DNA from: Patescibacteria group bacterium
GTDB lineage: Bacteria; Patescibacteriota; Minisyncoccia; Phycocordibacterales; SBAW01
Assembly: GCA_028866155.1 (NCBI GenBank)
Contig: JAGWIT010000004.1
Coordinates: forward strand, 1 to 39,947
Length of the DNA: 39,947 nucleotides
Direction of reading: 5' to 3'
In this document: piece after piece, positions 9,769 to 20,522 of the stretch
Position numbering within the stretch: the first letter of the stretch is position 1
How the letters are laid out: each line of letters begins with the position of its first letter
Position numbers and translations under genes: made by a program
Notes under the pieces: generated by a model
What the model saw: the letters and a program-made list of their open reading frames with translations, nothing else
What the model was told of the DNA's origin: nothing
Database searches by the model: none

Positions 9769-10734
9769 ATGATGAATAGATTTGCCGCCACCATGCTCGC
9801 ACTCATTATCGTGGTCGGGGGCGTGTTCTTGTGGGAGTATCGCGACGCGCCGTGGCTGGCGCCCTACCTCGGTTCGGGCGCCAAGCAACAGCAGCTGGTT
9901 GGCACCGCATCCTATTTATGTGATCAAGGCAAAACTATCAGCGCGTCATACTATCAGGGTACACAAGGCCAACCTGCCTCGACCAGCGCGTCGGGAATGC
10001 CGCCAACGCCCAACGGCTCGGTTGCGCTCACGCTCTCCGACGGCCGTTCGATGACCCTGCCGCAAACCATCTCCGGCTCGGGCATTCGCTACGCCAGCTC
10101 GGGCGACGCGTTTGTTTTTTGGAGCAAGGGCAATACCGCGTTTGTCGAAGAAGGTGCTTCGAGCCAGCAAACCTACGCCAACTGCATAGCGCTAAGCAAC
10201 ATTGCGGGGCAGGAGCAGTGGACTGCGTTCGCATCGTCAACGTTTGGCTTCTCGGTTAAATATCCGCAGGGTTACACTCCCGCTTCCTATGTCTACCAAG
10301 AGCTAGGCCCGGGCAAAGATATTAAAGGAGTGAAGTTCACCATCCCTGCGTCAGTAGCGACCGGCACTAATCTCGCGAGCGACTCCTATATTTCAGTCGA
10401 GCAGTTGCCCAGTGTTCAGCCTGCCACGACTGGAGTGTCGGGGGATTGCACCGCCGATAAATTCCTCGACATGGGCAACGGCTCCCATATACAAACGGTA
10501 ACCGATAATGGCGTCGACTATTCGGTCGCCTCCTCAACCGGCGCGGGGGCCGGGAACCGCTACGAAGAGTGGGCGTGGGCAATACCCGGCACCAACCCGT
10601 GTCTGGCAGTGCGCTACTTCATCCACTATGGCGTGATTCAAAATTATCCGCCCGGCATGGTCCAGCAGTTCGACGAAGCCGCGCTGTTGAAGCAATTCGA
10701 CGGCATCCGCCAGTCGCTCGTGATAGGGAAGTAA
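9769..10734 (+). CDS. Membrane-anchored protein with MliC-like lysozyme-inhibitor domain
   Basis: ASYLCDQGKTISASYYQ...VALTLSDGRSMTLPQTISGSGIRYASSGDAFVFWSKGNTAFVEEG fits the MliC pattern (YxCxxG, L-S-GxRY, WxKGNxA). Confidence 0.75.
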   Translation: MMNRFAATMLALIIVVGGVFLWEYRDAPWLAPYLGSGAKQQQLVGTASYLCDQGKTISASYYQGTQGQPASTSASGMPPTPNGSVALTLSDGRSMTLPQTISGSGIRYASSGDAFVFWSKGNTAFVEEGASSQQTYANCIALSNIAGQEQWTAFASSTFGFSVKYPQGYTPASYVYQELGPGKDIKGVKFTIPASVATGTNLASDSYISVEQLPSVQPATTGVSGDCTADKFLDMGNGSHIQTVTDNGVDYSVASSTGAGAGNRYEEWAWAIPGTNPCLAVRYFIHYGVIQNYPPGMVQQFDEAALLKQFDGIRQSLVIGK

Positions 10735-10735
10735 A
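10712..10735 (+). repeat. 24-bp direct repeat flanking RAYT element, copy 1
   Basis: agtcgctcgtgatagggaagtaaa, identical to 11465..11488. Confidence 0.95.
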
Positions 10736-10746
10736 TTGACCCATAT

Positions 10747-10774
10747 TACGGATTTACGAAACCCGTATTTTTTT
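10747..10774 (+). terminator. Element-end hairpin plus T-tract (terminator-like)
   Basis: tacggattt-acg-aaacccgta imperfect hairpin followed by T7, directly after the MliC-like gene stop codon. Confidence 0.55.
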
Positions 10775-11429
10775 ATTCAAGAAAATATGGAGAGAGTTTT
10801 TTCAAGTTCATATCGTTGAGGAATTCTTTCGTTTTCTTTTCCACGTTTCCGTAGGAGTCAGCAAAGAGATCAGTGGCGATAACAGAAGGAAAATTACGTT
10901 CGCCGCAATAGTCGAGATAGCTGCTCCATTTATAATTCTTTAGATGTGCTATCGCCTCGGCGAGGCTCTTGATATGGCCATTGCGCCAGCTGCGGGAGTC
11001 GTTGAAGTAGTCTAGCGGATTCAAATGGATGTAGTGAAGGATATAAAGAAAGTAGGCATCCTCATCTATCAATTTTTTCTTTGTTCTGCCTTGAAACAAT
11101 GTTCCGCTTCTTTTGTACCGTTCGTTAAAATAATTTGCATACCCTACATTCAGTTTCCGCAAAAATAACGTTAGACCTCCCTCGACCCTTTCGGAGACCA
11201 GTAGATGGTAGTGATTTTTCATCAAGCACCATCCATGTAAATCAACAATCTTCTCCCGCTCAAAATACGGGTTTCGTAAATCCGTATTTCGTTGATGGTG
11301 CCGGACATTGTCGGCAGGTTTTACGTCATTGAACTCATACAGATCGTGCACAAAGCGTGCATAATCGCGGCCGTCCATGAATAGGCGCCTTTTTTCTACG
11401 CCGCGGTTGAACACATGATATATATCCAT
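10773..11429 (-). CDS. REP-associated tyrosine transposase (IS200-like Y1/HUH family)
   Basis: MDIYHVFNRGVEKRRLFMDGRDYARFVHDLYEFND...HGWCLMKNHYHLLV...YANYFNERYKRSGTLFQGR...LHYIHLNPLDY. Confidence 0.9.
   Translation of the reverse strand: MDIYHVFNRGVEKRRLFMDGRDYARFVHDLYEFNDVKPADNVRHHQRNTDLRNPYFEREKIVDLHGWCLMKNHYHLLVSERVEGGLTLFLRKLNVGYANYFNERYKRSGTLFQGRTKKKLIDEDAYFLYILHYIHLNPLDYFNDSRSWRNGHIKSLAEAIAHLKNYKWSSYLDYCGERNFPSVIATDLFADSYGNVEKKTKEFLNDMNLKKLSPYFLE
11262..11286 (-). repeat. Internal inverted copy of the element-end hairpin
   Basis: aaaatacgggtttcgtaaatccgta is the exact reverse complement of 10747..10771 and lies inside the transposase ORF. Confidence 0.9.
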
Positions 11430-11443
11430 CGGCCGGACTATAA

Positions 11444-11457
11444 ACGGATTTACGAAA
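11444..11457 (+). repeat. Right-end copy of hairpin motif acggatttacgaaa
   Basis: Same orientation as 10748..10761. Confidence 0.85.
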
Positions 11458-11464
11458 TCGGTAA

Positions 11465-11488
11465 AGTCGCTCGTGATAGGGAAGTAAA
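11465..11488 (+). repeat. 24-bp direct repeat flanking RAYT element, copy 2
   Basis: agtcgctcgtgatagggaagtaaa, identical to 10712..10735. Confidence 0.95.
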
Positions 11489-11534
11489 AAAATAATCCCG
11501 TCTCGCGCAATTGTAGCGGGACAGGATCTTTAGT

Positions 11535-12119
11535 TCACTCGGCGGCTTCGGATAGACTTTCGGCCTCTTTCACCACTATCGTCCACCGGTTGGTCGAAAG
11601 ATTGCAGTTAAGCCGCTCATCGCGACCCGAGGGCCTAATGGTGAACTTCTCGGTTTGCGTTATGTTCACTCCCTCGATGCTTTTGGCAACATCTTGATCT
11701 GCGAGCAGTGCCTCCTTGTTCACCTCTTCTTTGACGCGGATAAACCGCTCAAGCTTCAGCGTTTTAAGCCGCTTCACAATAGTCTCGGCTTTTTCGGCAA
11801 GCTCGACCGCAGGCGGCGAGGTCGACCACGCCACGATCCCGCCGCTTTGCAGTGTCGCGCTCTTGCGCCCCGGTTCGAGTATCTCCTCACGATGCTCTTC
11901 GGCAAAAGCGCGGATAGCCTTGGCTATCTCACGGACTTCAGCGGTGTACTCTTTTATCTTTTTCTCCGCTGCCGTTTCGAACTGTTTTATAGCAAGCGCT
12001 GCATCGAGTCGGCATTGTTCCGACCGCGAAAGCAGGGTGCCGAGCCGGCGATCGAGCTGTGCCGCCTCGAACATCGACTTGGGCGGCGGCACTCGCTTGG
12101 GCCGTTGTTTTTTGGCCAT
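11535..12119 (-). CDS. Phage Mu Gam-like host-nuclease inhibitor protein
   Basis: Coiled-coil N-terminus, then LQSGGIVAWSTSPPAVELAEKAETIVKRLKTLKLERFIRVKEEVNKEALLADQDVAKSIEGVNITQTEKFTIRP. Confidence 0.82.
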   Translation of the reverse strand: MAKKQRPKRVPPPKSMFEAAQLDRRLGTLLSRSEQCRLDAALAIKQFETAAEKKIKEYTAEVREIAKAIRAFAEEHREEILEPGRKSATLQSGGIVAWSTSPPAVELAEKAETIVKRLKTLKLERFIRVKEEVNKEALLADQDVAKSIEGVNITQTEKFTIRPSGRDERLNCNLSTNRWTIVVKEAESLSEAAE

Positions 12120-17138: not shown

Positions 17139-17837
17139 ATGAGCCCCGCGCCCAAACGAAAAACCCCGACCCGCTCAACCCCCAAAAAGGCGGCCCCCTT
17201 GCCCCCTGTGGCGCGCCGCTCTTTTTCGTTTGACCGCATGTGGCGCCTGGTGCGCTGGCCTCTGCTCATTGTCGCGCTCCTTTATATAGCATTGGTTATA
17301 TACCGTATCCCCGCGGTGGGTGACCAGCAAAAAACTACTCAAGCGGTGGCGCAGATACAATCGCAGCACATCACGCTTGCCGACGTGATGGGCGACAACC
17401 TGCCGTTTGTGCCCTATGAGCCCAACAACGACGCAACCGTCGCCGGCATCGACCAAAACAATAACGGCATCCGCGACGACGTTGAGTTAGCCATCTTTAA
17501 ACTCCACCCCGACTCGGCAAAAATAAGAGCGGCCGAGTTGCAGTATGCGCTCGATCAACAGATTATGATAACTGAAGTCCTTAATAATCAGACATGGATT
17601 GCGGCAGCCCAAGAAGATTCTCGAGGATTTGCATGTATTGGTGATTCAGTTCCGATCACTTCTGATTCAAGTAAGGATTTGAAAACTGTGAATGCACGAG
17701 CAAAAGAAGTTAGAGATTTAGTATTAAATACTCCTGCTCGCCAAAACGCATGGCACACAGCATATAATTTTACAACTAGTTACGGGGACTTGAACGCAAG
17801 TGACTGCGATATTGACATAAATTTACTTCCCAATTAG
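17139..17837 (+). CDS. Membrane-anchored hypothetical protein
   Basis: Pro/Lys-rich N-terminus, one TM segment, extracytoplasmic domain. Confidence 0.6.
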   Translation: MSPAPKRKTPTRSTPKKAAPLPPVARRSFSFDRMWRLVRWPLLIVALLYIALVIYRIPAVGDQQKTTQAVAQIQSQHITLADVMGDNLPFVPYEPNNDATVAGIDQNNNGIRDDVELAIFKLHPDSAKIRAAELQYALDQQIMITEVLNNQTWIAAAQEDSRGFACIGDSVPITSDSSKDLKTVNARAKEVRDLVLNTPARQNAWHTAYNFTTSYGDLNASDCDIDINLLPN

Positions 17838-17849
17838 AACTACTGGGCT

Positions 17850-20522
17850 TTGATTAAAAAAAGAGCTTTTACAGCCTTAAATATAGGCTTTTTATTATTG
17901 TTTTTACCTGCCATTGTCTCGGCGCAGGCTAATTCGCCTGCGCCCACATGCTCGGCAAGTGGGTATACAGTTGTGTATGTGAACGGTGTTTTTGATACTT
18001 TAGATCAGGCGAAAGTAGATAGAGAACAACTAGAATTTTCTTTTAAACGTCATCAAAAAAATATTAGTGAACCTGTAATCTTTCAACTCGGCTACAACCC
18101 TACCCACATCGCCGGAGCGGGGGATGCTATTCAGTCTACCTTCCAGCAGTTTAATTCGTCCGTTAGCAATTATGACCTCGACACTATTTTGATGGAGATT
18201 GCTCCGGAGGTCACGACGCGCAAGCTGCTTATTGTTGGACACTCGCAAGGCGCAGATTATGCAAATGAAATGTATGATTATTTGACTGGGCATGGCGAGT
18301 CAAAAGAGGCTGTCGGCGTCTATGCGGAGGCGACTCCAGCAAATTATGTCGCCAGCAATGGGAAGTATCTCACCTCAGCAACCGACAATGTCATCAGCGC
18401 TGTTGCCGCGGCCGCCGGCGCCGCCGCTCAGTACGGAGTTCCTGTTGTGCAGCCTTTGCCGCCCAACATAATCATCCCTGTATCTGCGGCCGAGGAAACT
18501 TTGCCGACCGGCGGGCATTCATTTATTGATGATTACCTCGCGGGCGCGTCCGACCGCATCGTCTCCGATATCTCAGGCGAGCTTTCGGCTTTGGTGCCGA
18601 GCGGCGCCGGCAATGGCGGATGTTTTACTCCCCCGGCACCAAGCCTCGGATACAAAGCGCAAACTCTCGGTTTTGCAATCGCTGACCCGGCCGCGGTCGC
18701 CTTAAGGACCGGCGTCATTACTACCGCGAAGGCATCCGAGGTTGCTGTTACTGCCGCGTATACGCTCGTCGCAGGCGCTACGCAGTTTTTGGCAGACACG
18801 GTGAAAGTGACCACTTCGCCGCCGAGCCAAGCGCAAGCCGACCACAAAACGCTCAAAATAGTCGACAAATTATACGGCGGCGACTTGTCTGACCCGGAGC
18901 TTCAAGACTTGCTCGGCAATAATCAAGGTTCGGCAGTGGCGCTCGCCGCACAAGGCAGCGAGCAGCCCGTGCCCGTCGACGGCGGATTTGTCGAAGGGAC
19001 TTCGACTTCAGTTGTTATTGCGGCTGTTATTGCAACTTCTTCTGCTCCGACCTCAATGCCGAGCATCTTTCCTCAAACAGCCAATGGGCAAGTATGGGTC
19101 GGCGGCGGCTCGGCGCCCGCACAAAATCCTCCAGCACAAAACGCTCCGACTCCGGCTGTTTCTGATACTTCTGACGCTACCGCAGACGACGCAAGCACGA
19201 GCGCTCCAATGATACCGCCTGAGCCGTTTGATGCATCGACAACTGCGCCGATCGTCTCGGTGCCCGCGTGTGCCGCGTCGCTGTCGCCCGAATTTTGTTT
19301 TTTGCCCGCCACCGACGTGACGCTTACCTGGGACTCGGTAGAAAATGCTTTGCAATACGGCATCAATATCAATGGCACGCAAATTAATACCATTACCGGC
19401 ACGAGCACGACTGTCACCCTTGCCGATGATGCGTCGAGCACGGTGAAAGTTGTCGCCTATGACGCCTCAAGCACGCCGCTCGCTTCAAACACACAGACGG
19501 TCTATGCGTTCACCAAGCCGGTCGTCATCAACGAGGTGGCATGGAGCGGGACCAATACCTCGCCGACCGACCAGTGGGTCGAATTAAAAAATCGCACGCC
19601 CTATCTGCTTGATGCTTCAAAACTGATTTTGCTCGCCGAGCAGGGAGGCGCGCAGTATGTGCCGCTCACCGGAACTATCTATGGTCTCAATGTGAATCAA
19701 GGGTTCCCGTATCTTTATTTGCTTGAGCGAACGCAAACAGTATTTACCGGAGTCAGTGGTTCGACGCCGCAGTTCGCGGGCGAATTTGACCCGCTCGACG
19801 CCGCAGGCGAACAACTCGCGCTCGCGTGGTCGGATGGAGAGTCGACCACCACGCTCGATGAAACGCCCGCGGTCGCAACGTGCGGAGGTTGGTGCGCCGG
19901 CCGGCAAGCAGAGGTCGGCGGCTATGCCTACGCGTGGGGCAACCCCGAGCCAATATCGATGGAGCGCATCAGCTCGGACGTTTCAGGAACGCTGGCTTCT
20001 AATTGGGCGAGCAACGACGGCTATATCACCAACGCGGATGACGGTAATGGGCAGCGCATCATAGGCTCTCCCGGCTATCAAAACTCAAACAATTGGCCGC
20101 TCGCGGGGTTCTTCTGCGACGGCGACGCGTCGATACTCGTGCCAACTACGGGGACGCCTCCGGTGTACGCGCCGCAAAGTTCTCACTGCACGTACCTCGC
20201 CGGATTTATTGGCAGTACTAAAAGCGCGCAGGGCGGGATATTCGAAGGCACGGTCGGCAGTTCGACGCTGATCAACAGCTCATATTTTTCTTCGAACAGC
20301 CCCAGCTATACCGGCTCGGGCATCAGTCTCGGCGGCTACCCGCCGGGGCAATATTTTGTCGCGATGTGGGAGCTCAACTACAACGTGGGTAGCGGGTACA
20401 ACGGATGGTCTGCGGGAGACATGATGTCCTATATTAAGACCGGCTTTCAAGAAGATGGTGTCACTGCGATGCCGCCCGTTAACAACTATGTCATCATCCC
20501 ATTCACCTACGCGCCGCAGTAG
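17850..20522 (+). CDS. Large secreted protein with lipase-like GHSQG motif and lamin-tail-like domain
   Basis: TTG start, signal peptide, LLIVGHSQGADYANEMYDYL, Fn3-like LTWDSVENALQYGININ, and VVINEVAWSGTNTSPTDQWVELKNRT (lamin-tail pattern). Confidence 0.7.
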   Translation: MIKKRAFTALNIGFLLLFLPAIVSAQANSPAPTCSASGYTVVYVNGVFDTLDQAKVDREQLEFSFKRHQKNISEPVIFQLGYNPTHIAGAGDAIQSTFQQFNSSVSNYDLDTILMEIAPEVTTRKLLIVGHSQGADYANEMYDYLTGHGESKEAVGVYAEATPANYVASNGKYLTSATDNVISAVAAAAGAAAQYGVPVVQPLPPNIIIPVSAAEETLPTGGHSFIDDYLAGASDRIVSDISGELSALVPSGAGNGGCFTPPAPSLGYKAQTLGFAIADPAAVALRTGVITTAKASEVAVTAAYTLVAGATQFLADTVKVTTSPPSQAQADHKTLKIVDKLYGGDLSDPELQDLLGNNQGSAVALAAQGSEQPVPVDGGFVEGTSTSVVIAAVIATSSAPTSMPSIFPQTANGQVWVGGGSAPAQNPPAQNAPTPAVSDTSDATADDASTSAPMIPPEPFDASTTAPIVSVPACAASLSPEFCFLPATDVTLTWDSVENALQYGININGTQINTITGTSTTVTLADDASSTVKVVAYDASSTPLASNTQTVYAFTKPVVINEVAWSGTNTSPTDQWVELKNRTPYLLDASKLILLAEQGGAQYVPLTGTIYGLNVNQGFPYLYLLERTQTVFTGVSGSTPQFAGEFDPLDAAGEQLALAWSDGESTTTLDETPAVATCGGWCAGRQAEVGGYAYAWGNPEPISMERISSDVSGTLASNWASNDGYITNADDGNGQRIIGSPGYQNSNNWPLAGFFCDGDASILVPTTGTPPVYAPQSSHCTYLAGFIGSTKSAQGGIFEGTVGSSTLINSSYFSSNSPSYTGSGISLGGYPPGQYFVAMWELNYNVGSGYNGWSAGDMMSYIKTGFQEDGVTAMPPVNNYVIIPFTYAPQ

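Follow-up and report, generated by a model that had tools for sequence, protein, structure and literature searches.

How did a RAYT gene come to lie between two identical copies of the end of a neighbouring gene? This question is raised by a locus in the window, a stretch of 39,947 nucleotides analysed here from a Patescibacteria group bacterium (assembly GCA_028866155.1, contig JAGWIT010000004.1). The initial annotation had described a transposase unit of 729 bp bracketed by an exact 24-bp direct duplication, and both the duplication and the length of the unit were confirmed: AGTCGCTCGTGATAGGGAAGTAAA occurs in two exact copies, one at each edge of the unit (Table 1). A scan of the whole window identified this pair as the sole direct repeat of ≥17 bp at a spacing of 200–4000 bp. 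The chance expectation for such a pair is about 4e-6, and the longest comparable repeats in shuffled 40-kb windows reached only 13–16 bp. Beyond its two copies, the 24-mer was found neither in the genome nor in 34 congeneric genomes when ≤3 mismatches were allowed; therefore, it is not a dispersed repeat.

Table 1. Coordinates of the features at the RAYT locus of the window.
Feature	Position	Strand	Remark
MliC-like gene (PF09864)	9769–10734	+	Pfam E 7.7e-14; last 7 codons and stop correspond to repeat copy 1
Direct repeat copy 1, gene side	10712–10735	+	Exact match
Inserted RAYT unit, 729 bp	10736–11464	-	Between the repeat copies
3' flanking palindrome REP3, TACGGGTTTCGTAAATCCGTA	10747–10767	-	Just past the RAYT stop; forms a hairpin
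RAYT coding sequence, 218 aa and stop	10773–11429	-	HUH motif NHYHL, YIHLNP motif, IS200-like domain PF01797
Internal cognate palindrome, third copy	11266–11286	-	In frame within the RAYT coding sequence
5' flanking palindrome REP5	11443–11463	-	2 mismatches to consensus
Direct repeat copy 2, far side	11465–11488	+	Exact match
Downstream flank, terminator-like stem of Gam-like gene	11489–11520	-	T tract runs into copy 2
AAAATAATCCCG			Flank that the MliC end would adjoin directly in an empty site
Gam-like gene	11535–12119	-	Neighbour beyond copy 2

The derivation of the 24-mer from the end of the MliC-like gene was borne out as well. The MliC-like proteins of relatives have a conserved C-terminus, FDxIRxSLVxGx or similar, and copy 1 therefore represents the native gene end. 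A second copy of the tail downstream of the MliC-like gene was found in none of 19 relatives, for most of which about 1.5 kb downstream was checked, so that the 24-mer is apparently a target duplication. On the far side, copy 2 is continuous with a terminator-like stem, which the initial annotation had placed behind the ancestral MliC end. The stem itself was found, but with its T tract on the minus strand, and it would therefore act on the Gam-like gene rather than on MliC. The sequence looks native on both outer sides, as expected of an insertion with duplication, and we consider it likely from these sequence comparisons that the duplication arose upon insertion at the end of the MliC-like gene. 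A DNA-level empty site for this locus was not present among the genomes examined, because even the nearest MliC homologue shares only about 55% identity; a search for the exact empty site in viral contigs gave no match either.

The RAYT unit has a GC content of 42.2% as compared to 55.7% for the window, which marks it as foreign to its surroundings in the window. Another stretch of low GC content (about 41%, the minimum of the window) is located at about 17351–18380. With its orientation corrected, the RAYT gene reads on the minus strand from 11429 to 10773. Its product matched PF01797 with an E value of 3e-5, just above the cutoff, and the NCBIfam model REP_Tyr_transpos with 31.9 bits, below the cutoff of 80. 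In a Foldseek search, an AlphaFold model (mean pLDDT 80) had its top hit in 4er8 (E value 1e-4), a structure of the E. coli RAYT in complex with a REP hairpin; a sequence search against solved structures returned no match. The genome encodes two further RAYTs which are 35–36% identical to the one in the window. Except for palindrome pieces, DNA copies of the unit were not found elsewhere in the genome, and no relatives of the RAYT were found in viral contigs.

The palindrome TACGGATTTACGAAACCCGTA occurs three times in the unit, namely after, before, and inside the RAYT gene. REP3 and REP5 read in the same direction; the internal copy is inverted and is the exact reverse complement of REP3 over 25 nt. 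Folding of REP5 was no better than that of shuffled sequences. REP5 spans the spacer of a sigma-70-like promoter match, TTTACC-17-TATAGT (11465–11437), and the 5' palindrome of RAYT genes is often located directly before a TATAAT-like box; such an arrangement would fit autoregulation. Outside the unit, the cognate palindrome was found in the genome in two more copies only, on contigs C60 (G000:C60:25598, L269) and C62 (G000:C62:9009, L270). They lie in frame, one within uvrC and one within a glycosyltransferase-like gene, both gene names being assigned by eye.

Genomes of the genus and of the order, together with named GTDB genomes, yielded 204 unique RAYT units; 187 of them had adequate flanks and were tested for direct repeats. 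Non-palindromic (non-REP) flanking direct repeats of 23–53 bp were identified at seven of the 187 units, a rate which is only approximate because the seven units were curated by hand, with palindrome-derived repeats removed. The repeats comprise 23 bp at L206, 24 bp in the window, 36 bp at L105, 39 bp at L186, 41 bp at L127, 46 bp at L097, and 53 bp with one mismatch at L191. The same procedure applied to 363 comparable genes in 619 kb returned the window RAYT and one case of tandem paralogues (L211), which was set aside as a run of paralogous genes; this leaves 0 unexplained flanking repeats among 362 control genes (Fisher P = 0.0005; P = 0.0014 without the window). The initial annotation had linked duplication on insertion to the presence of flanking duplications at other RAYT copies; these were found at six further units, but about 96% of units are without them. 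Palindromes or promoters gave rise to the apparent repeats at L074, L080, L135, L146, and L202, and a pilin-like paralogue motif to that at L156, while a 17-bp repeat at L130 is part of a diverged repeat; all of these were rejected. A DnaA-box-like sequence, TTATCCACA, was observed ≤300 nt from 23 of the 204 units (e.g., L060, L062, L069, L151) and in 7 of 431 control windows; this comparison is rough because the control windows are mostly coding.

For two of these units, relatives carry sites with a single tail. The piece duplicated at L105 comes from the end of a recQ-like gene, and relatives with 68–78% DNA identity have one tail at the end of this gene. At L191, the end of a recJ-like gene is duplicated; across the genus, the recJ-like gene has one tail, and in many genomes it is directly followed by an RNase H gene. 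Both genes were identified by eye, the recQ-like gene without use of a profile. Furthermore, RAYTs with the same palindrome are located directly past the recJ-like stop codon in two species (G011:C49, L268; G033:C13, L187, L278), with a tail duplication in G011 and without it in G033. In G422, the L105 gene may have received a second insertion, which ends at contig edges. The interpretation of the locus as a single-unit insertion with an unusual junction is hence supported for the insertion and for the duplication of the MliC end. The junction is not unique: six other RAYT units have a like junction, and two of them single-tail sites in relatives.

We favour, with a probability of roughly 0.52, an insertion that is initiated by the RAYT and finished by break or fork repair, with duplication of the target end. 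A RAYT unit with cognate palindromes upstream, downstream, and inside the gene would insert where the 3' end of the MliC-like gene lies; target sequence of 24 bp, the stop codon included, would be duplicated, so that the MliC-like gene kept its native end. The RAYT would set off the movement with a nick at its own hairpins in single-stranded DNA, and host repair or replication would complete it, either by fill-in of a staggered break or by a template switch at a fork that re-enters the target upstream by a few tens of bases. Completion of this kind would account for duplications of variable length and for ragged ends, and survival of those inserts that spare the host gene for the location of several junctions at gene 3' ends. 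Against this reading stand the small share of units concerned (~4%), the additional 300–500 bp enclosed between the repeats at three of the seven (L127, L186, L206), and L097, whose two copies have diverged in the sequence next to the exact 46 bp; such divergence is not what a simple target duplication would lead one to expect.

The main competing explanation assigns no role to the RAYT itself: the RAYT gene would have come with imported donor DNA in which the same gene end was present, integrated through homology at one edge and, at the other, by an illegitimate or single-crossover join that duplicated the gene end. Such a course has a precedent in E. coli, where single-crossover integrations left partial-gene duplications of 109–950 bp (PMC3240628), and it would suit L097, where one exact block of 46 bp is common to two diverged gyrA-like tails. 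The RAYTs of G011 and G033 point in the same direction, being 78% identical to each other and 74% at the DNA level as compared to about 60% for the recJ-like host gene. However, in our sample such repeats occur at RAYT units only and not at other genes; in six of the seven units, the distance from repeat to element palindrome is ≤15 nt on one side or both; and the copies in the window and at L105 are identical with homology ending at their edges, those at L191 differing by one mismatch. We regard import of donor DNA as possible, though less likely. A true target-site duplication, made by the RAYT cutting both target strands at an offset, would account for repeats that closely abut the palindromes, as at L191 (0 and 4 nt) and in the window (about 1 and 11 nt). 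The corresponding distances are 27 and 31 nt at L105 and 10 and about 85 nt at L097; together with the spread of repeat lengths (23–53 bp) and the lack of fixed element ends, they make a precise duplication by the transposase improbable. Furthermore, most units show no duplication, and, as described, the related IS200/IS605 elements move without larger target duplications (PMC2817692). Still more remote is an insertion between pre-existing tandem 24-mers, or an artefact of assembly or chance. The genome is a 66-contig assembly, which would allow for such an error, but the chance expectation is far too low, tandem tails are absent in relatives, and repeat lengths vary across independent genomes, where an assembler k-mer would give a fixed length.

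The internal palindrome is not confined to the window. Among 191 RAYT units, 102 (53%) have a gene that shares ≥13 nt exactly with its own flanks, as compared to 6 of 573 (1%) mismatched gene/flank pairs used as a control (P about 1e-64, related units not being independent). In 91 of the 102 units the match is located roughly 16–30 residues ahead of the HUH motif, in one loop, and 77 of these 91 match both flanks. Orientation relative to the flanks is even (51 and 51). The palindromes and the peptides they encode both vary between units, and internal and flanking copies diverge together (window copy, L072–L098, 204 RAYT units). In the window, the internal palindrome encodes part of a loop predicted to be disordered (residues 41–55, pLDDT <50) and, in an alignment with 25 relatives, falls into the same variable stretch. 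This co-divergence points to selection at the DNA level or to repeated self-targeting in reduced genomes; alternatively, the hairpin may merely be tolerated. No description of a cognate palindrome within a transposase gene was found in the literature searched.

The window unit is a variation on the known RAYT type and not a new class. It shares with RAYT/REPtron systems (TnpA_REP with flanking REPs; E. coli rayT) the Y1/HUH fold and short palindromes at both gene ends. It differs in that the GTAG tag is missing from the palindromes and from 10 nt on either side of them, in its score under the NCBIfam cutoff, and in flanking palindromes that are direct rather than inverted; the flanks of E. coli K-12 rayT likewise share a 37-nt direct match. 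Furthermore, an internal cognate palindrome is absent from E. coli K-12 rayT, and a minority of the units described here have long flanking duplications. The Y1 transposase fold and subterminal hairpins are also found in IS200/IS605 elements (IS608, ISDra2); these are described as lacking larger target duplications, whereas duplications of 23–53 bp recur here. Short in-frame palindromes in protein genes, repair genes included, are already known from intragenic REPs and Rickettsia palindromic elements (PMC3733652, PMC10969869); here, in contrast, the transposase gene itself carries its own palindrome at one conserved site. In uvrC of the genus, several in-frame palindromes were seen (L310, L324, L331, L332), and the same uvrC loop is struck by different palindromes in several congeneric genomes.

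The mobility of the RAYT gene itself has been doubted (PMC8266576). Parcubacterial RAYT units may use a route that leaves variable duplications of 23–53 bp, unlike described Y1 transposons, and may employ the internal hairpin as a functional site of processing or autoregulation; this proposal as a whole is a tentative one, and we hold it to be rather doubtful. As an insertion footprint, the duplicated target ends would provide defined junctions for testing how RAYTs move.
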